The notes under the pieces: generated by a model
The model's input: the letters and a program-made list of their open reading frames with translations, nothing else
What the model was told of the DNA's origin: nothing
The model's database searches: none
Position numbers and translations under genes: made by a program
Source: a virus
DNA: 52,761 nucleotides
Virus record (IMG/VR): IMGVR_UViG_3300044707_000873
Coordinates: 1-52,761 of that record
Direction: 5' to 3' (one strand)
Shown: positions 842-13,281 of the stretch, piece by piece
Layout: every line of letters starts with the position of its first letter
Position numbering within the stretch: the first letter of the stretch is position 1

Positions 842-1645
842 TTATTTCGGTTCTTGGGCGGTTTCAGCTTTATTAATCTCTGATTCTACCCAATCCGCGT
901 ATAAACTCACACGCGTAAATGCCGCCTCATCTGTGTATGTGCCGTCAGGTTTTTTATCCAGCGCCATTAAAAACGAGTTAATTCCGGCCAGCCTGTTACC
1001 AATAAACAACCCGCCGCCAGAATCGCCGGGGCAGATAAGAAACTCTAAGCCCGTGCGTTCAGCGCCTCTGCTTGCGTTGCACACCATAATATTGCGTTCC
1101 AGCGCCGAGATTTTATTGCTGCCGGCGCGTTTATGACTGTCGTATTGCTTGCCGCCTGTGTGAAACGTACCATGCCAGCCAAATCCGGCAATCGTGGCGT
1201 CTTTTCCCAGCTCGTCAGAGTCAGTGAATAACGGCGTGTAAAACTCGAGCTCGAAGTCCTTGGGCGAATAGCACAGCGCCAAGTCGTGATAGCCGTAGAG
1301 CTCGTCTTTGTATTCCGGATGCTGAAGGACTTTCGTCAACGCATGATTGCCGGACTCGCGCAGAATCGACTGGTTCTCCGTGTGCGCAACAACATGCGCC
1401 GCGGTGAGCACCCAATGCGGCCGAATCACGACAGCACTGGCGTAATGCACGATCTCTGTGTTTGGATCGTCAACGGGCCTGTGCGCTTTCTGCACAACAG
1501 CCCGGATCTTCATCACCCACGGAAACTTCTTGCCGAACTCGACGTATTGGCTATCCGGCGTATCGGGATCCCGCGTGCCGGAACTCGCGCGCCCAGTGCA
1601 GAGGAAAAAAATGATGATCGCTAGCAAAATTGTGTACGGGCGCAT
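842..1645 (-). CDS. Trypsin-like (S1 family) serine protease with signal peptide
   Basis: The 267-residue protein starts at the ATG at 1645, preceded by a strong AGGAGG ribosome site; a longer upstream frame lacks such a site. Residues 1-22 form a Sec-type signal peptide (charged start, hydrophobic stretch TILLAIIIFFLC, small residues ASS). The chymotrypsin-fold triad is visible as H84 in LTAAH, D121 in YHDLAL and S209 in CPGDSGGG. The predicted site of action is the periplasm or outside of the cell. Exported S1 proteases are unusual in phages. Possible roles, all inferred, are cutting an envelope protein, superinfection exclusion or maturation of a surface protein. It sits 22 bases after a methyltransferase gene. 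Confidence 0.9.
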   Translation of the reverse strand: MRPYTILLAIIIFFLCTGRASSGTRDPDTPDSQYVEFGKKFPWVMKIRAVVQKAHRPVDDPNTEIVHYASAVVIRPHWVLTAAHVVAHTENQSILRESGNHALTKVLQHPEYKDELYGYHDLALCYSPKDFELEFYTPLFTDSDELGKDATIAGFGWHGTFHTGGKQYDSHKRAGSNKISALERNIMVCNASRGAERTGLEFLICPGDSGGGLFIGNRLAGINSFLMALDKKPDGTYTDEAAFTRVSLYADWVESEINKAETAQEPK

Positions 1646-2282: not shown

Positions 2283-3554
2283 TCACGGGGTGCCGTCTTC
2301 TCGAAGTAGCTGGAATTCGCCGGGCGTACGCGTCAAACCGGGAATCCATCCGTTGCCTGCCGGCGTAACCGAGAATTGCTGGCTTATCCACGGATGTTTC
2401 TCGGTCAGGATTTTGTCCCACACTAAACGCGACAATAAACCGCCCATGAATTGTTTGTTGGTCTGTACCGCGCCTTGAGAATACGCGTCAAGGCCGTCTG
2501 TTGATTTCTGCGCCGACCACCATGACGGGCGCAGTACTTTTAACTTCTTTGCGGCATCGGTAGCATACAAGATATCCGCATTCGACGGCGTGACGTCATA
2601 CCGGTCGAGCACGCGGCCTAATTGCGGATTGGTACCTGATGGCGGCAGGATCACTTGCTGCCCGCCCAGAAGCGTATCGGCGCCAAACAAACCACGCGTA
2701 ATCCAGCCCAGGTTGTCAGGTTTGGTGTTTTCGCGGTGAATAATCTTGGCCGGATTTGTCAGCAGCTTTTTCAGATTTGCCTTTGCTTCGTCCGTGCGAG
2801 CGCCGAATAAAACGTCACGAAGCTGCTTATAGCGCGGATTCTGCTCATTGACCGAATAGTAAGACGGTCCGCCCACTGTTTTGTTCTGCTGCCAGTAATC
2901 CGTGTCTGGACTCGCGCGATGGACGCCGAATGCAATGCGGTTCAGTTCACGCCTGGCCATGCCGACATCCCCAACGTTCGCATTAAAGCCGGGCTTGTCG
3001 TAAATAGCGGCGTCGATAAATCGCTGCAGTGACCCGGGTAACAGCTGCTCGAGTTTGCTGCTGGTGTCGTAATTCACCGGAAGAACCGTGTTCGAGATAT
3101 ACCTGCGCGCGCGGTCGCCTACGAGATTCGCCCCGAGCCCGCCAATAGCCGCTCCGCCAAGAATACGTTTGAGCGCTTTGGGCAGTCTTTTCTCGCCGGG
3201 CCTTTGCTCGGCTGCAAGATCGTAGAGTAAACCAGCGCCACCGCCCAACGCACTGCCCAGCAGAATATCCTTGGGATGCAGGCCGGGCAATTGGGATTGC
3301 AGATCAGCTTGTTTTTGTGGAAGCTGCTTTTGCGCTTCTTGCTCGTCCTGCAATTTGCGGCGGTACAGGAGATACAGACTCAGGGCGCCGATACCAGCTG
3401 CCGGAAGCGCTGCTGTTAATAACCCGCCCGCTGCATCAGATCCCGGCCCGTACGCATTGGCTGTTCCGGGATCTGCGCTCTCCATGAGGCCAGGAGTACG
3501 TTGTGCGTACTGGCTCGCCGTCGTCGGTAAAAGAATCGGGGCGTCCGCTGGCAT
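2283..3554 (-). CDS. Glycine-zipper membrane-active protein, probably virion or ejection related
   Basis: A 423-residue protein of unknown family. Residues about 40-65 form a hydrophobic, Ala/Gly-rich segment ending in YLLYRRK. A helix-rich Gln/Lys stretch follows, then two glycine-zipper segments (GSALGGGAGLLY and GGAAIGGLGANLVG, about 100-145). The remainder is soluble. It lies directly after two other glycine-zipper genes, and the three probably act together. Glycine zippers of this kind occur in pore-forming and DNA-ejection proteins of phages; assignment to the virion is inference. It starts with ATG 11 bases after the preceding stop, with a GAGCGGTG sequence as a possible ribosome site. 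Confidence 0.65.
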   Translation of the reverse strand: MPADAPILLPTTASQYAQRTPGLMESADPGTANAYGPGSDAAGGLLTAALPAAGIGALSLYLLYRRKLQDEQEAQKQLPQKQADLQSQLPGLHPKDILLGSALGGGAGLLYDLAAEQRPGEKRLPKALKRILGGAAIGGLGANLVGDRARRYISNTVLPVNYDTSSKLEQLLPGSLQRFIDAAIYDKPGFNANVGDVGMARRELNRIAFGVHRASPDTDYWQQNKTVGGPSYYSVNEQNPRYKQLRDVLFGARTDEAKANLKKLLTNPAKIIHRENTKPDNLGWITRGLFGADTLLGGQQVILPPSGTNPQLGRVLDRYDVTPSNADILYATDAAKKLKVLRPSWWSAQKSTDGLDAYSQGAVQTNKQFMGGLLSRLVWDKILTEKHPWISQQFSVTPAGNGWIPGLTRTPGEFQLLREDGTP

Positions 3555-3565
3555 TGGCGCACCGC

Positions 3566-4996
3566 TCAGCCTTGCGGGGCTTCTTCTTCTTTTTTCTTCT
3601 TGGGCTGGCTGTTGAGGTAGTTATACAGCGCGTATAACCCAGCACCACCCAGACCAACCGGAATGCCGTACATGAGCGCCGTCTGCAGATCCATTCCGCC
3701 GGGCGCACTACCGCCAGCAGGCGCCGGTGTTTCGGGAGACGGCATGGCAATTGGGCCCGGCTTGCCCACTGACTGTAACTTGCCCTGTGCCGAAGCTGAC
3801 GCCGGACCAGAGCCGTACGCATACGAAGACGACGGCGTGGGAAGAGCGCCCGGAAGCTCACTCGCGAGACCAGCCATTTCTTTCAAACTCTGCGGAGCTT
3901 GTTTTAGTCCTTTGAGCGCTACGCCGGGAGCGGCCATGACGCCCTCAATGGCAGAGTCAAACCAATTGCGCTGGCCGCCATACTGATCGGGCCGGTACCA
4001 AGGCGTCGTCTTTGGTTTAGGCGCCGGACCGCCTTGCAGATGCGGCGGCGGAAGATTCGCGGCTAGTCCGGAATTCGCACGCTCAAGCGCTTCTCTATCA
4101 ACAGCGTCGTGCCAGGCGGGCCGAGGAGCCGATGCGTAATCTCCGGCCGGCGCATTAAACGCAATCTCAGCCACCTTGCTGCCGAATACGTGCGCCGCTG
4201 ACTTACCGTTATTTCTTTGCATCTTCTCTCGGAGCGCTAACAGCCGCTCGAGCTTCTCTTCGTCTGTCTCGTCAGGGCCGATTGCGCTGCTTGCTACAGA
4301 GTGCCCAAGCAAACCGCCTGTGAGACCACCCGCAACGCCGCCCAACGGAACGCCAAGCGCTGCGCCACCAGGACCGCCAATCATAAGGCCGCCCAATCCG
4401 CCCAGAGCCATTCCAGGCGCCGCACCAACCGTAGCGCCAATGTCCCAACCAAGGCCTTTCGCAGCGCCCCGGCCGGCAGCACGAGCTCGCTGCCCGGAAC
4501 GACCAGTTGCTAAACCGCCCAACGCGCCGATCACTGTACCGGCGCCCATTACAGCTCGCTTTTCCTTACGCGCAGCAATCTTCCCAGACACGACGCTTTT
4601 ATCATGCTCGGTCTCAGTTGTCTCGGGCTGGCCGATTTCCTCAGAAGCCTCGTCAGCCTCAAGCACCGCCGGACTCGCACCCGTCATGTGCTTCTTGTTC
4701 GTCGGGCCATTGGGCATGTCGCAGGGAGAGCACGACGAGGCGGCGAGCTTAGCGCCGAATTGCTTTAAGTTCATAACTGTTTCCTTAACATACGCCTGCT
4801 TTAATTGCTCTTTTTCTTTGTTCTCCGGATCGATGTGCTCAAACAAATCGATACTGGGCTTCGCGTTCAAACTTTCAGCAATCGTCTTGGCGTTATTAAA
4901 CTGATCGCCGGAATTAGCGTGACCCTGCGCCGATGTCGGGTGCAGGTCGGTAATGTTGGCAATTTTCTGCCCAAATGCCTGAAACGCAGATGCCAT
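3566..4996 (-). CDS. Glycine-zipper protein with three FGxKhA motifs
   Basis: A 476-residue protein. Residues 150-240 are a long series of GxxxG/GGLGG repeats, able to form several packed membrane helices. A second hydrophobic segment lies near the C-terminus (MYGIPVGLGGAGLYALY) and is followed by a KKKKEEE tail. Three copies of a short motif stand out: FGQKIA (8-13), FGAKLA (80-85) and FGSKVA (271-276); the neighbouring zincin gene has a fourth near its own start. A CSPC pair follows the second copy. The ribosome site CGGAGGG precedes the ATG at 4996. A role in DNA ejection or in the virion interior is inferred from composition and neighbours; the family is unrecognised. Confidence 0.65.
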   Translation of the reverse strand: MASAFQAFGQKIANITDLHPTSAQGHANSGDQFNNAKTIAESLNAKPSIDLFEHIDPENKEKEQLKQAYVKETVMNLKQFGAKLAASSCSPCDMPNGPTNKKHMTGASPAVLEADEASEEIGQPETTETEHDKSVVSGKIAARKEKRAVMGAGTVIGALGGLATGRSGQRARAAGRGAAKGLGWDIGATVGAAPGMALGGLGGLMIGGPGGAALGVPLGGVAGGLTGGLLGHSVASSAIGPDETDEEKLERLLALREKMQRNNGKSAAHVFGSKVAEIAFNAPAGDYASAPRPAWHDAVDREALERANSGLAANLPPPHLQGGPAPKPKTTPWYRPDQYGGQRNWFDSAIEGVMAAPGVALKGLKQAPQSLKEMAGLASELPGALPTPSSSYAYGSGPASASAQGKLQSVGKPGPIAMPSPETPAPAGGSAPGGMDLQTALMYGIPVGLGGAGLYALYNYLNSQPKKKKEEEAPQG

Positions 4997-5307: not shown

Positions 5308-6276
5308 CTAGACCTTCTTCTTTTTCTTCTGCTTCTTGGCGTATAGTTTTTCAGCCAGATTCTGAATAGCTTTACGCGACTCTTCGGGCGACATCTTGTG
5401 CTTCTTGCCGTAAGCCCCTGCGTATTCAGTTAAATACTTCTCTTGAGCCTCGGGCGAATCATGGTACTTGTCCTCGGCGTAGCTGCTGCCCAGAGCCGCG
5501 CCAGTCATCGCTCCGCCCGCTCCGCCAAGGCCCAAACCTAGCGCAAACGGTAGCCCCACACCACGCCCGGCATAGCCATTCCGAACCAGCGCATATGTGC
5601 CAAGCGCCCCTAAGCCACCGCCCAAGAGTGTGCCCAAACCGCCGCCCCAATAACTGCCCAAGCCAGTGTATTTTGCCCGCGTCGCATCCCGCAATGTTTT
5701 TACAACCAGCTCAGGCGGGAGTTTGGTATGCGCAGCACCCTCAAGAAAATACTGCTTGCCTTTGTCCCAGGCGGCGTGCTCTTTCCAAATCGTCGGAGCG
5801 AGATTGCGATATAACCCCGCGCCAACCATCCGCAATGTATCGTTCGGATATCCGTTGAAATCAATGCTGTGCCCAAGCTCGTGCATCATGATGCCGGGAT
5901 TGCCACTCGGCAGCCACACGGTATCGGCGTCTGGGTGATACGCGTCCGGAAGCATTTGCGTCTTGTCCGGCAATCCCTCAACTTTGTCGTACTTCGCCAT
6001 GAACCGCTGATGTGGCGCAGATCTGGGATTCTCCGTCATGCGCTGCTGGAGATCTTTTACCTGCGTGCCATAGAGATCCACGCGGGTATTATCCAGCGCC
6101 CCATGCGGAGCCACAGCCGCCATAGCATTCGCAATAGCCGCGGCTTCCTGCCGATTCACCGTGCTATCGTGCAGCACCTTCGCCATGGCCAATTCTGGCT
6201 TATGCGTGTCGTGCGTCTGCAACACCGAAATGGCAATCTTTTCGCCGAATGAATACGCGGGGGATTTGCGTGTCAT
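5308..6276 (-). CDS. HELGH zincin metalloprotease fused to glycine-zipper segment
   Basis: The 322-residue protein uses the ATG at 6276; a TTG five codons upstream is also in frame but neither has a strong ribosome site. Residues 130-140 read IMMHELGHSID, the HExxH zinc site of metallopeptidases (H132, E133, H136). Downstream residues 205-265 are a strong glycine zipper (GGGLGTLLGGGLGALG, LGLGLGGAGGAMTGAALG) followed by a Lys-rich C-terminus. Near the N-terminus, FGEKIA (10-15) repeats the motif seen three times in the adjacent gene. The third zinc ligand is not obvious. The combination suggests a protease carried into or across a membrane, perhaps during DNA injection; this is inference. The family is otherwise unrecognised. 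Confidence 0.75.
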   Translation of the reverse strand: MTRKSPAYSFGEKIAISVLQTHDTHKPELAMAKVLHDSTVNRQEAAAIANAMAAVAPHGALDNTRVDLYGTQVKDLQQRMTENPRSAPHQRFMAKYDKVEGLPDKTQMLPDAYHPDADTVWLPSGNPGIMMHELGHSIDFNGYPNDTLRMVGAGLYRNLAPTIWKEHAAWDKGKQYFLEGAAHTKLPPELVVKTLRDATRAKYTGLGSYWGGGLGTLLGGGLGALGTYALVRNGYAGRGVGLPFALGLGLGGAGGAMTGAALGSSYAEDKYHDSPEAQEKYLTEYAGAYGKKHKMSPEESRKAIQNLAEKLYAKKQKKKKKV

Positions 6277-6342
6277 GGGAAATACCAGCAAAAGCGAGCT
6301 GTTAATAACTCATTTGGATTATAGCCGAAAACCATTAAACCT

Positions 6343-6410
6343 CTGATAGCAAAAGAAAACCGGGAGGGCTGGGGCTTGTTAGGCCCCAGTGAATCTCCGG
6401 TGGTTTTCTT
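6343..6410 (-). terminator. Intrinsic terminator with nested stems, followed by GCTATCAG
   Basis: In the minus-strand RNA an outer GAAAACC/GGTTTTC pairing encloses a 7-bp stem CTGGGGC/GCCCCAG and ends in TTTTCTTTT. The octamer GCTATCAG (6343-6350) follows at once, as at five other terminators in this window. It ends the 98-residue gene cassette. Confidence 0.8.
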
Positions 6411-7516: not shown

Positions 7517-8419
7517 CTACGCACTACCTTTTCCGAAGCTAGCATTTCCCGTGACATTCTGCGCAAACGTGGGGACGCCGTTTCGGGTATTCAGCGGGCC
7601 TTTCATACCCAGCGGATTCGACGCGGGGCTGGCCATGGAGGGTTTATTTGCGGCTACTTGCGGAGAAGTTCCAGCATATGTGGCAACGGGGCCGGAATTC
7701 TGCTGTTTTTTATCGGATCCGGCCGGGGGAAACATCATGGCCTGCTGCAAAGCATAGGCGCGTTGCATCTTCAGCTGTGAAATTCCGTCTTGTAAATTTT
7801 TTACGTCAAGACCGACGTTTTTCGGGGAATTGTCGCTATCGTGGGGCTGGCGGTGTTTTTTGCCCAACCGAACAATCGCTGCGTATTTGGAAAACAATCC
7901 ACCCAATTTCTGCAAAGTCGGCTGAATCTCCGGGTCCGCGATATTAAACGCTTTTTCCAAGCGATCCTTCACATTGCTGACATTCGTCGGGCATTTGTTT
8001 TCCGCAGAATTACTGTCTTTTTTATCGCTTTTGACCGTAACAGACTCCTCTCCCGCAGCTACTGGTTTATCGCTGTGGGGGACATTTAATTCCTGAAGAA
8101 TCGAGATGCTTTTTTTAGCTATTGCAGCGGATTTTTCGGGGGTGGCCGTTGGGGTATTTACCGACAAAGACCGCGCAAAGGCCTGAGAAATTCGCGGTTG
8201 AGATTGGCCGTAGTGCGTAAGAGCCTGAGTTAAAACAGCCAGGGTAGCCTCTTTTTTGTTCATTTTTCCGCTCTCATCCTCGTTATTATCTAAATTCTCA
8301 GTTTCGCGCGCATACGTCGGTAAATTCTTTTGATTCGGGTACTCGTGCGCCCAGCGTTTTGCGATATCTGGATGCTTGAGCCACAGGAATCTACGTTGTT
8401 TTTCGGATTTGAATGGCAT
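7517..8419 (-). CDS. Unknown phage protein with MPFKSEKQRRFLW N-terminus (300 aa)
   Basis: The ATG at 8419 follows GGTGAG. The N-terminus (MPFKSEKQRRFLWLKHPDIA, then RWAHEYPNQKNLP) resembles a short basic module found at the start of many phage head-region proteins. The rest is low-complexity and hydrophilic: a Lys/Ser-rich middle, a helix with QLKMQRAYALQQAMM at about 215-230, and a Pro/Gly/Asn-rich tail. It looks like a scaffold-like or disordered virion protein, but I cannot assign a function. It overlaps neither neighbour and is followed by a phage-type promoter. Confidence 0.65.
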   Translation of the reverse strand: MPFKSEKQRRFLWLKHPDIAKRWAHEYPNQKNLPTYARETENLDNNEDESGKMNKKEATLAVLTQALTHYGQSQPRISQAFARSLSVNTPTATPEKSAAIAKKSISILQELNVPHSDKPVAAGEESVTVKSDKKDSNSAENKCPTNVSNVKDRLEKAFNIADPEIQPTLQKLGGLFSKYAAIVRLGKKHRQPHDSDNSPKNVGLDVKNLQDGISQLKMQRAYALQQAMMFPPAGSDKKQQNSGPVATYAGTSPQVAANKPSMASPASNPLGMKGPLNTRNGVPTFAQNVTGNASFGKGSA

Positions 8420-8756: not shown

Positions 8757-9722
8757 TTAAACGCCATTTGCAGATATAAACCAGCGTGCAGTTCGCTGTA
8801 GGCCGGTAGCCAATTTAACCGCAGGCCGCCAACCAAGCACCCGGCCGGCTTTTGCAGCGTCGACAAGATTGGATCTGAGATCGCCTGCGCGAGCCGGAGC
8901 ATAAATCGGCGCAGGTAGGTGATATTCAAACACAACCTGGCGCAACTCCTGCCGAATAACCGCCTCAATTTCGTTTACATCCGCGCCAATACCCGTACCA
9001 ATGTTCAAACTAGTGAGCGTGCCTGCCGGTGTTTCTACAGGAGCAGCCGTGAGCGCGAGAATATTGGCGCGAGCAACATCTGACACAAAAACGTAATCCC
9101 GGATGTATTTACCGTCGCCATTTATTGTGGCTGGTTCGCCGGCAATCAGCTTTTTGCAGAATATTGCCACAACGCCAGCTTCTCCATGCGGATTCTGGCG
9201 CGGACCGTAGACATTCGAATACCGCAGCGCAATGCCGATAAATCCATACTGTTCGGCGTAGAACTTCAAATAGCGCTCGCCAACCCATTTTGTAATGCCG
9301 TAAGGACTGATTGGATTTGCCGGCGTTGTTTCTGGCGCTGGCTTGGTGACGTCGCCGTAGAGCACACCACCGCTCGACGCAAACACAAAGCGACTGCATT
9401 TGTGCGCTACGGCAGCATTGAGCACGTTTATGAGGCCAATGCAATTTACCTGCGCGTCGAAAAGCGGATCGCGCACAGAAAGACTCACTGACATTTGCGC
9501 CGCCTGATGGCACACAACGTCAGGCTGTTCTTGATCAAACACGTCGCGCACGGCTCTTCCGGCAGTTATGTCGACAACGTGTAGCGGCACAGTTGGCGGC
9601 AGATTGTTTTTTGAGCCGCTATAGAGATTGTCGATAACCGAGACGCTATGGCCGGCTGCTAATAGCCCGTCGACGATGTGACTGCCGATAAAGCCTGCGC
9701 CGCCTGTGACTAACACTTTCAT
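8757..9722 (-). CDS. NAD-dependent sugar epimerase/dehydratase (GalE-like)
   Basis: A 321-residue short-chain dehydrogenase of the extended type. GGAGFIGSH (7-15) binds NAD, FASSGG (114-119) carries the catalytic Ser/Thr region, and Y141 with K145 in SPYGITK form the YxxxK pair. The later part (LRYSNVYGPRQNPHGEAGV, DYVFVSDVARA) matches UDP-sugar 4-epimerases. The start is the ATG at 9722, with GGAG six bases before it; a TTG four codons upstream is less likely. The predicted reaction is inversion of a nucleotide sugar in the cytoplasm. The exact sugar is unknown. It could supply the three glycosyltransferases encoded elsewhere in the window. Confidence 0.9.
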   Translation of the reverse strand: MKVLVTGGAGFIGSHIVDGLLAAGHSVSVIDNLYSGSKNNLPPTVPLHVVDITAGRAVRDVFDQEQPDVVCHQAAQMSVSLSVRDPLFDAQVNCIGLINVLNAAVAHKCSRFVFASSGGVLYGDVTKPAPETTPANPISPYGITKWVGERYLKFYAEQYGFIGIALRYSNVYGPRQNPHGEAGVVAIFCKKLIAGEPATINGDGKYIRDYVFVSDVARANILALTAAPVETPAGTLTSLNIGTGIGADVNEIEAVIRQELRQVVFEYHLPAPIYAPARAGDLRSNLVDAAKAGRVLGWRPAVKLATGLQRTARWFISANGV

Positions 9723-9791
9723 GTGTTTCTCCAATTGCTGCGAATAAGTAACGCAATATCCTGAAATACTAGTTGATCCGATAAAATAGAG

Positions 9792-9823: not shown

Positions 9824-10288
9824 ATGATGCTAATTCGCCCCATGCGCATGTTTGATATCGCTGCGGTTTGCAAGCTGGCCGCCGATAACTATCCAAAAAA
9901 CTATTTGGGTAGCGAAGAAGCGCTTGCGTCGAAAATAACCGGTTACATGCGCGGCTGTTTTGTGGCGGAAATCGCCGGCGAAATAGTCGGTTACATTATT
10001 TCGGGGCCTGGAATCATCGGGCAGTATAGCGAGCGCGACGAGTTTTACACACCGCCGAGTAATGCAGATTGTCTGTATATCCACGAATTATGTATCAAGC
10101 TTGGTTATCGCGACCGGAGAGTCGGGAGCAAGCTTTTTACACGTGTCTTGGATTTTGAATGGTGGCCCAAAATATGCCTCGTAGCGTTTATGAGCGCAGG
10201 CGGTTGGTGGCGGCAATTTGGATTTCGACACGTGTGCTCCGTTGAATATTGCGACACCGTGGCCGAATACATGCGCCTCGACCGCTGA
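9824..10288 (+). CDS. GNAT-family N-acetyltransferase
   Basis: The only plus-strand gene of the window, 154 residues. The N-terminus LIRPMRMFDIAAVCKLAADN is typical of GNAT proteins. The acetyl-CoA region is CLYIHELCIKLGYRDRRVGS (about 84-103), with RRVGS replacing the usual RGxGxG loop, and GGWWRQFGFRHV closes the fold. The acceptor is unknown. No clear ribosome site precedes the ATG (sequence GAAAAAACC), so a short leader or weak translation is likely. The stop codon lies inside the octamer that follows the opposing terminator. Being alone on this strand it is likely a moron-type accessory gene. Confidence 0.8.
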   Translation: MMLIRPMRMFDIAAVCKLAADNYPKNYLGSEEALASKITGYMRGCFVAEIAGEIVGYIISGPGIIGQYSERDEFYTPPSNADCLYIHELCIKLGYRDRRVGSKLFTRVLDFEWWPKICLVAFMSAGGWWRQFGFRHVCSVEYCDTVAEYMRLDR

Positions 10289-10329
10289 TAGCAAAGAAAA
10301 AGCGCCGGCTTGAGCGGCGTAACGCTTTT
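10285..10329 (-). terminator. Intrinsic terminator, followed by GCTATCAG
   Basis: The minus-strand RNA pairs AAAAGCG with CGCTTTT and CGCCG with CGGCG inside, followed by TTTTTCTTT and GCTATCAG (10285-10292). It ends the 102-residue gene and overlaps the stop codon of the plus-strand acetyltransferase gene. Confidence 0.8.
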
Positions 10330-10357
10330 GCGGTGCCCGGATTCCGCTACCACAGTT

Positions 10358-10666
10358 TTAGAACTCGCCGTGTAGGGCGGTGAGATACACGTTCAACCGC
10401 ATGTATCCGTGCGCCTCTGGATGCAGGAACTGGTAGTCCTGGCCGTCCAGAATACGACGGCCAAGACGCGATCTCACCGTGAGGCAGATCCCATCCCATT
10501 CTCGCCGGGGCCGAATCGAGGCGCGCACCTCGACTTTGTAGCTGGCGCAGAAAGCAACCAGCTCGGCCTCTTTCCATTCGATCGCCATGCTGTGTTCTTC
10601 GCACAGCTTGGCAATCGACTTGAGCGCCGCGACTTCCGTGTCGAGATATTGCTCGGTGGAAAGCAT
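10358..10666 (-). CDS. Small GC-rich cassette protein of unknown function (102 aa)
   Basis: The ATG at 10666 follows AAAGGAG. The protein is soluble, with an N-terminal helix (VAALKSIAKLCEEH) and a mixed C-terminal half (RREWDGICLTVRSRLGRRILDG). Codon usage is G/C-rich at third positions, like the other cassette genes. Promoter at 10705-10732, one ORF and terminator at 10285-10329 make a self-contained unit. The family is not recognised. Confidence 0.7.
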   Translation of the reverse strand: MLSTEQYLDTEVAALKSIAKLCEEHSMAIEWKEAELVAFCASYKVEVRASIRPRREWDGICLTVRSRLGRRILDGQDYQFLHPEAHGYMRLNVYLTALHGEF

Positions 10667-10704
10667 ATTCGTCTCCTTTCGAAAAAAGCTGGACCACCCA
10701 GTTT

Positions 10705-10732
10705 ATATGCCCGAATATCCTGGAATATTTAG
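10705..10732 (-). promoter_or_regulatory. Phage-type promoter CTAAAT-N15-GGCATAT
   Basis: Copy in front of the 102-residue gene. CTAAAT starts one base after the CTTTGTAG motif copy 3, so the two elements are directly stacked here. Confidence 0.75.
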
Positions 10733-10733
10733 T

Positions 10734-10753
10734 TTTGGTATCGAGCTACAAAG
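10734..10753 (-). promoter_or_regulatory. CTTTGTAGSTCGATAYYAAA motif, copy 3
   Basis: Minus-strand copy lying between the GCTATCAG box of the upstream terminator and the CTAAAT promoter. In this position it looks like an upstream activator or operator site rather than a complete promoter. Confidence 0.5.
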
Positions 10754-10758
10754 ATTCG

Positions 10759-10805
10759 CTGATAGCAAAAAAAAAGCGCGTTAGGAGGGCCGAGCACGCG
10801 CTTTT
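10759..10805 (-). terminator. Intrinsic terminator, followed by GCTATCAG
   Basis: The minus-strand RNA stem AAAAGCGCGTG/CGCGCTTTT is followed by nine T and then GCTATCAG (10759-10766). It ends the 74-residue gene. Confidence 0.85.
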
Positions 10806-10835
10806 GCGGTGCCATGGGTTTCCGCTACCCATTAT

Positions 10836-11060
10836 TTAACTCTGCAACCAAGCGAGATCTTTTTGACGGTGCAGCTCTTGGGCTTGCTCCACCGTCAGGC
10901 CAATCAGCTCCTCGGGCTTGAACTGGATCTCGTCGACGTAATAAGCCAACAGCTGGACGAAATCCTCCGCGCCCGACAGCCTAACGCGCACCTTCGCTGT
11001 GTCGCCAAACTCTGCCGGCGGATCAATCAACGCCTGCACGATCACACTGGGCTCGATCAT
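10836..11060 (-). CDS. Small protein of unknown function (74 aa)
   Basis: The start is the ATG at 11060, preceded by CAGGAGTG; a longer frame upstream runs through a hairpin and is unlikely. The protein is acidic (EFGDTAKVRVRLSGAEDF, then a helical C-terminus LTVEQAQELHRQKDLAW). G/C-rich codons. It begins directly after a hairpin with a T-tract and ends at its own terminator. The family is not recognised. Confidence 0.65.
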   Translation of the reverse strand: MIEPSVIVQALIDPPAEFGDTAKVRVRLSGAEDFVQLLAYYVDEIQFKPEELIGLTVEQAQELHRQKDLAWLQS

Positions 11061-11080
11061 GAAACACTCCTGTTGGGAAA

Positions 11081-11111
11081 GAAAAAACGCGAGGCTGTTA
11101 ACCTCGCGTTT
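11081..11111 (-). terminator. Hairpin with T-tract just upstream of a ribosome site
   Basis: Minus-strand RNA stem AAACGCGAGG/CCTCGCGTTT with loop TTAACAG, followed by TTTCTTTC. Only about 12 bases separate the T-tract from the AGGAG of the 74-residue gene and there is no promoter between. It is therefore either a leaky terminator or an mRNA processing/stabilising hairpin. Confidence 0.7.
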
Positions 11112-11140
11112 GCGAAACGATAACGCGCTAGCGTCATCTA

Positions 11141-11512
11141 TTATTTGTCGGTCGTGAACGCCGCCGACTTTTTCTCGAGTTCGTTTGCAGCAGCTTGCAC
11201 CGCGGAGCCCCTGTCGTAGCCGGCGTGCCAGATCTCGTTGTAATACTCCGGCCGTTCGGCCGCAGACACAACGCCGGCTACGAACCAACGCGTGTGGTCC
11301 GCTTCATCTGCTACGCGCGCCTGCTGCAGTTCGTACGTGATGTCTCGAATCTGATCGTCGGCGATCTTCATCGCTTCCTTCGTGATTCTGAGCTCATCTC
11401 GCAGTCGGTTGGCGTCAAACCAACTGTTGATTGTGATCTGCAGTAGCACAAGCGATAGGCAGCACGTGATCACCGCCAGGAACTCAGAAAACGTCATTTT
11501 TCTATCCGTCAT
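11141..11512 (-). CDS. Membrane-anchored coiled-coil protein (123 aa), possible spanin-like
   Basis: The ATG at 11512 follows AAGGA. Residues 9-30 (FLAVITCCLSLVLLQITI) form one N-terminal transmembrane segment. A charged heptad-like helix follows (RLRDELRITKEAMKIADD, about 36-53, continuing to about 70), then a soluble tail. This layout, an inner-membrane anchor with a periplasmic coiled coil, is that of inner-membrane spanins, but no outer-membrane lipoprotein partner or endolysin is seen nearby, so the assignment is weak. It is followed by a hairpin and then the 74-residue gene. Confidence 0.7.
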   Translation of the reverse strand: MTDRKMTFSEFLAVITCCLSLVLLQITINSWFDANRLRDELRITKEAMKIADDQIRDITYELQQARVADEADHTRWFVAGVVSAAERPEYYNEIWHAGYDRGSAVQAAANELEKKSAAFTTDK

Positions 11513-11540
11513 TTGAAGAGTCCTTTCTTGTTAAACACCA

Positions 11541-11735
11541 TCACTCAACGTGCGACGATACACGTTGATACGATTCAATGCAGGATACGAGTCTTTTCCA
11601 CAGGTTTTCCTCCCGCGGCGTCAACTCATACCCCGCCTCCTCAGCCTCTCGAACGCGGTCCACCAACCCTAACGCGCTATGATAGTCGAACTTATCAAGC
11701 GCGTTTCGCAGTTCCGTTGCGAATTTTGCCGGCAT
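11541..11735 (-). CDS. Small helical protein of unknown function (64 aa)
   Basis: The ATG at 11735 has a strong AGGAGGTG ribosome site that lies in the stop region of the upstream 40-residue gene. The product is highly charged and probably all helical (FATELRNALDKFDYHSALGL, REAEEAGYELTPREENLWKR). The family is not recognised. Confidence 0.65.
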   Translation of the reverse strand: MPAKFATELRNALDKFDYHSALGLVDRVREAEEAGYELTPREENLWKRLVSCIESYQRVSSHVE

Positions 11736-12892: not shown

Positions 12893-12923
12893 TCAGCCTC
12901 CGTTGTTGATGCCGTCAATCCAG

Positions 12924-13281
12924 TGGACCCGGCGGGAGTCGAACCCGCGTCCAGAGACAGATTGATAACAGACGTCTACGTGCGTATCTAGGTATTTAAT
13001 CTCGTTTGCGCAGCTCCACCCAGCGGGATATGCAGCAAACCAGCCCAGAACGTATTTAGGCGCAGCAGTACCAGGCAGTGTGCTGCGCCGAGTCGGATTT
13101 GGCGACCGCTTAGAAAACCCTTCCGACTGGGGCTAACTTCGCGGGCTACCGACCTTTTGGGTCAGGCAGCGAGAGCAAGAGGAGCGCCTCTTAGCGTTTG
13201 GTCTGCTTTTAACGTGGCCAACAGACCAACCACGGCACGCGATCTGAAATCTCACCATCCTGTCGATACCAGTACGGGCCC
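12924..13281 (-). ncRNA. ssrA: Transfer-messenger RNA (tmRNA)
   Basis: The 5' end GGGCCCG pairs with the 3' end CGGGTCC, giving a 7-bp acceptor stem with a G3-U70 wobble, the alanyl-tRNA synthetase identity element. GGTATCGACAGG follows the acceptor as in other tmRNAs, and the T-arm reads GCGGG TTCGACT CCCGC. The tag frame (13206-13162) encodes ADQTLRGAPLALAA and ends in TGA; the first codon is GCA and the ALAA end is the usual degradation signal. No CCA is encoded. Role: releasing stalled ribosomes and tagging nascent peptides. Only two bases separate its 5' end from a tRNA, so both must be cut from one precursor. Confidence 0.95.

Follow-up and report, generated by a model that had tools for sequence, protein, structure and literature searches.

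A predicted zincin metallopeptidase with a glycine-zipper hairpin, a candidate virion protein of large phages with a cellular-type RNA polymerase

Besides a portal-like protein and a PolA-type DNA polymerase, the 52.8 kb virus record analyzed here in full, which we call the window, encodes tRNAs and a tmRNA. The tmRNA gene (12923-13281, minus strand) specifies the tag ADQTLRGAPLALAA and is followed by six tRNA genes. At 5308-6276 on the minus strand lies a gene for a 322 aa protein with a predicted zincin core (residues 28-190, 5707-6195) that includes the motif HELGH (residues 132-136, 5869-5883) and E166 (5779-5781). Next comes a glycine-zipper helix pair that starts with GSY (residues ~206-267, 5476-5661), and the chain ends in a Lys-rich tail (residues 313-322, 5311-5340) with the C-terminus KKQKKKKKV. 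All of these features are on the minus strand. A sequence-only reading of this DNA had placed HELGH at residues 132-136 and, after it, a glycine-zipper segment and a Lys-rich tail, all of which the translation contains. No obvious Shine-Dalgarno sequence precedes the ATG start. Just upstream (6310-6390, minus strand) are a G+C-rich hairpin (CTGGGGC...GCCCCAG) and a TATAAT, neither of which was listed by a consensus scan; given this pair, the zincin gene may open a transcription unit.

AlphaFold2 gave a confident model of the domain (18 sequences, pLDDT 85, pTM 0.82) and, from 12 full sequences, a model of the whole protein with pLDDT 78 and pTM 0.77. In the model, three strands lead to the HELGH helix and the next helix (residues 163-184) carries E166, which is a zincin-like order of elements; helices 188-232 and 242-267 hold the glycine zipper. 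H132 and H136 are predicted zinc ligands and E133 a predicted general base. The sequence-only reading had called for a structure prediction to find the third zinc ligand; E166, on the helix after the HELGH helix, is predicted to take this role because it is invariant in all 18 sequences of the domain alignment. When a longer alignment is used, E166 aligns in 16/18, with insertions at this place in L108 and L165. Two features of gluzincins are thus present, the HExxH motif (18/18) and a conserved Glu on the following helix. Among solved structures, a Foldseek search of the PDB with the domain alone returned nothing significant (best zincin E 3.6), so the zincin fold is inferred. The weak domain-only matches include M13, ArdC and Wss1 zincins (E 3.6-8.3). 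Whole-chain matches to flagellar stators and alpha pore-forming toxins were dismissed as helix noise among long helical proteins (E >0.1) and were not counted as evidence for a pore.

Searches of Pfam, PHROGs and PDB sequences with the window zincin alone gave no significant match. A profile built from nine zincin domains of N4-type virion RNA polymerases (vRNAPs) aligned in hhalign with the family domain profile at 82% probability over 36 columns, covering the strand and the HExxH helix, and with the full-length family profile at 25% probability. With N4-type zincins the sole zincin profile compared, this match appears to back "zincin" more than "N4-type zincin". The invariant HELGHxxD...E in 18 sequences, the confident domain model and the N4 vRNAP profile match together support the earlier proposal of a zincin fused to a glycine zipper. 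That the protein works like a zincin is proposed from sequence and model, and we consider it very probable that the gene encodes a zincin domain, which would bind zinc and be active.

The family was assembled by way of the portal, which led to many related contigs, two of which held distant zincin copies. The resulting 3-sequence alignment retrieved further IMG/VR loci and two subfamily alignments retrieved more, giving 18 members after duplicate removal: the window protein and 17 phage homologues, with identities to the window zincin as low as 19%. Invariant in the domain alignment of all 18 (window numbering) are L61, H132, E133, L134, G135, H136, D139 and E166. Composition alone would yield an expected 0.02 HExxH motifs in a protein of this length. 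Six overlapping GxxxGxxxG words occur in the protein, a count reached in 0.015% of shuffles of the whole protein and in 2% of those of the segment. The conservation of sequence in the homologues is stronger evidence than such shuffles that the zincin and zipper are real; with the core shared by 17 further phage proteins, the arrangement is not a chance feature. Comparison of the window zincin with L098, the homologue closest to it, gives a dN/dS of ~0.12 at a dS that approaches saturation. One rival explanation is a zincin fold without protease activity that is retained as a structural or encapsidation module. The region of N4 vRNAP that holds the zincin domain is indeed required for encapsidation (PMC5512222), but none of the predicted catalytic positions varies among the 18 divergent members, which is unusual for a dead enzyme, and we regard this explanation as highly improbable.

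The zincins fall into two types. The window, L098-L101, L103, L169 and L174 have E-x-x-A-W, with L102 similar, and L104, L105, L107, L109, L154, L155 and L160 have E-x-x-A-N. The window and its relative G021 carry different types at corresponding positions, where an RFLWA-type protein precedes the zincin and a shared hydrophobic protein follows it, which suggests that both types do the same job. No zincin relative was found in named phages (tblastn among the searches) or in GTDB bacterial genomes, the latter scanned with the single pattern HELGH[AS]ID. The zincin is also absent from the closest portal relatives, which is uninformative because the majority of these contigs stop short of the corresponding position. 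Further HExxH motifs were seen in two relatives. The 760 aa zincin protein of L099 (7977-10259, plus strand) has a second one (HELSH) near its C-terminus, and the gene that follows (10259-11680, plus strand, 473 aa) contains HELGH too. The 205 kb portal relative L146 (10034-19950, minus strand) encodes a trypsin, a helicase and a glycine-zipper protein near a 782 aa protein with HELGHH and hydrophobic stretches that is perhaps the counterpart of the zincin.

Residues ~201-270 of the window protein are 33% Gly. Across the family, a glycine-zipper segment stands behind a G(S/T)Y motif in 16/18 members, with the Tyr (Y209) invariant in all 18; L165 keeps the Tyr and is missing the zipper, and the zipper of L160 is short. 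So Lys-rich a tail is not general among the relatives. The hairpin is moderately hydrophobic, with a 19-residue Kyte-Doolittle maximum of 1.34, under the usual transmembrane value. We think it probable that the hairpin contacts a membrane, into which it may insert. The sequence-only reading went further and suggested a pore that opens the cell envelope, a claim that, unlike "zincin", is not well supported. Here oligomers of the hairpin would form a DNA channel and the zincin would be secondary. Glycine zippers do pack helices, T7 and N4 build channels in the envelope from their ejection proteins (PMC12633501) and further glycine-zipper proteins are encoded nearby, yet the zincin core is never lost even where the zipper is missing (L165) or short (L160), and we find a pore-former very unlikely.

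The genes around the zincin include the 476 aa product of 3566-4996 (minus strand), which has 14 GxxxGxxxG words, and the 423 aa product of 2283-3554 (minus strand), a homologue of which adjoins the zincin at the matching place in G021 (36% identity). Of the two glycine-zipper neighbors reported earlier, the first therefore stands; the second is hydrophobic and glycine-rich and has one such word only. Glycine-zipper genes lie within two genes of the zincin at 10/17 loci, against a background of 25/282 same-strand ORFs, a weak enrichment. The window also encodes a trypsin-like serine protease (842-1645, minus strand; Pfam Trypsin E 2e-16) with the N-terminal signal-like segment MRPYTILLAIIIFFLCTG, and homologues occur in the related loci L095, L098, L145 and L146. 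It is possibly an exported phage trypsin near the zincin cluster. A small protein encoded at L095 5376-5693 (minus strand) adjoins the trypsin gene in G021; its N-terminus is signal-like, and it contains a CRPC motif that looks thioredoxin-like by eye. Two methyltransferase-like ORFs and one nucleotide-sugar-epimerase-like ORF, so classified by eye, surround the cluster (125-739, 1668-2273 and 8757-9734, minus strand), and homologues of each are found near the zincin in L096.

Several modules are joined to the zincin in relatives. The window protein at 7517-8419 (minus strand) begins with a MPFKSEKQRRFLWLKHPDIAKRW module. In L096/L105 and L101 the zincin carries this module as a fusion, and in L107 it carries a diverged form. 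This N-terminal module (7517-7590, minus strand, in the window) is seen on several phage proteins of the window and its relatives, matches short stretches in unrelated named phages, Streptomyces phages among them, and is possibly a targeting or encapsidation tag. DUF6321 is fused to the zincin in L096, L155 and L160 and occurs within the RFLWA protein of L098. The repeated joining of modules suggests shared targeting, perhaps to encapsidation. It also bears on a second rival explanation, that of a protease delivered or made early to cut a host protein involved in defence, transcription or the envelope, with the hairpin as its membrane anchor. Where polyvalent proteins are injected, their zincins are considered capable of acting on host proteins (PMC5512222), and the swapping of two zincin subfamilies at one locus could fit different targets. 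Repeated fusion to RFLWA and DUF6321 modules fits a phage-internal role better, and a host-directed effector seems to us rather unlikely.

Evidence on where the protein acts comes from a multi-subunit RNA polymerase. Its gene was present in 12/17 zincin records, always on the same strand as the zincin (12/12). The beta-beta' polymerase gene directly adjoins the zincin in L107 and L109, and the gene preceding the zincin in L155 codes the C-part of beta'; these three zincins belong to the subfamily other than that of the window. Constant adjacency was ruled out, as the two are direct neighbors in three records and otherwise mostly at least 10 kb apart. The nearest cultured phage is the myovirus Salmonella phage Arash, with whose portal the window portal-like protein shares 25% identity. 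The polymerase homologue in Arash is Gp206 (28-31% identity), which gave the most spectra of all proteins in purified virions (PMC10585845), and the helicase of the zincin gene blocks matches Gp217, which is abundant in the virions (PMC10585845). This proteome comprises 116 proteins, and its authors allow that some detected enzymes are carry-over (PMC10585845). Five Arash proteins have at least three glycine-zipper words: Gp4, Gp97, Gp213 and Gp224 are listed in the virion table, and gp241 is annotated 'structural protein' in the Arash record. The chance of five out of five in the virion is ~0.02, taking 116/252 Arash proteins as detected. Arash has no zincin, so its virion data do not concern the zincin protein itself. 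By analogy with these relatives of other proteins, the zincin is a reasonably likely virion cargo, and they lend indirect support to the injection suggested by the sequence-only reading.

Our favored reading, to which we give about even credence, is a virion-packaged, ejected and membrane-held gluzincin that would cut phage cargo or a host protein. The protein would be a gluzincin-type metallopeptidase with zinc held by H132, H136 and E166 and with E133 as the general base. Along with other glycine-zipper proteins, it would be packaged in the virion beside the multi-subunit RNA polymerase of this phage group, and early in infection it would be ejected and enter the host with the DNA. The hairpin would lie in or against the cell membrane and tether the protease to the site of entry; there the protease would trim phage cargo or cut a host protein. 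Action during genome entry rather than assembly is a possibility that we rate slightly below even. A more specific version, in which a membrane-anchored metalloprotease delivered with the genome and RNA polymerase acts on the phage entry complex or a host envelope protein and represents a separate ejection-protein family, is put forward tentatively.

The main rival explanation is a late-made protease for virion maturation, which would enter the procapsid and cleave itself or other cargo within the particle; the hairpin would then be a packing or docking element instead of a membrane element. The hydropathy of the hairpin would suit this role, DdrB of phage P1, a protein with a zincin domain, undergoes processing ahead of packaging (PMC5512222) and a conserved zincin of jumbo phages has been proposed to act in maturation (PMC7824862). 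On the other hand, no head-assembly gene was identified adjoining the zincin, the hairpin is retained in 16/18 members and N4 vRNAP is packaged unprocessed despite its own zincin (PMC5512222). We consider maturation possible, if doubtful.

Protease domains attached to N4-type polymerases have led to the prediction that virions contain proteases. The zincin described here is often encoded by a gene of moderate size; its catalytic signature is clear, the hairpin is built into the chain and the gene context recurs, so expression, mutagenesis and assays are simpler than for a single domain within a 3500-residue polymerase. It would also be a marker for the entry apparatus in a group of large phages that are frequent in metagenomes but almost uncultured. 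We did not find a separate zincin, usually with a glycine-zipper hairpin, described for large phages with a cellular-type polymerase in the part of the literature that was covered.

Among cellular zincins, some family members gave sub-threshold matches in the HExxH region to the Pfam families M13, M43, M15_4, Zn_peptidase_2 and M91. No match reaches the curated cut-off where this is shown, and the window domain matches none of these families. The tape measure protein gp96 of phage P23-45 contains a virion RNA polymerase as well as a metallopeptidase and membrane segments (PMC10770324). It resembles the system proposed here in combining a cellular-type polymerase, a metallopeptidase and membrane segments for entry, but does so in one 5002-residue chain. 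That chain has no HExxH, so its peptidase is of another type, which is ruled out for the window zincin.

Zincin-like MPTase domains are known from N4-type virion RNA polymerases (N4 gp50, domain C1) and from phage polyvalent proteins (PMC5512222, PMC12633501). The N4 vRNAP domain shares with the window zincin the succession of a strand, an HExxH helix and a Glu helix as well as the link to a virion RNA polymerase. An Asp three residues after HEXXH, D139 here, is also found in a widespread phage-type zincin (PMC5512222). The third-ligand motif is NEFMAW in N4-type vRNAP zincins and KEHAAW in the window, and the polymerase is T7-like in N4 and of the cellular beta-beta' type in the zincin phages. 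Whereas the N4 domain is part of the polymerase, the window zincin is a separate 322 aa ORF with a glycine-zipper hairpin; no fusion of zincin and polymerase in one chain was found in the family, in which the modules joined to the zincin of relatives are RFLWA or DUF6321. A functional parallel would be the ejection (cargo) proteins of crAss001, T7, P22 and N4, which like the proposed zincin cargo are delivered with an RNA polymerase (PMC10172136, PMC12633501). No sequence homology was found between them and the zincin, for which a place in the virion is proposed. Unlike crAss001, T7, P22 and N4, the zincin phages relate to the myovirus Arash, by both portal and polymerase.
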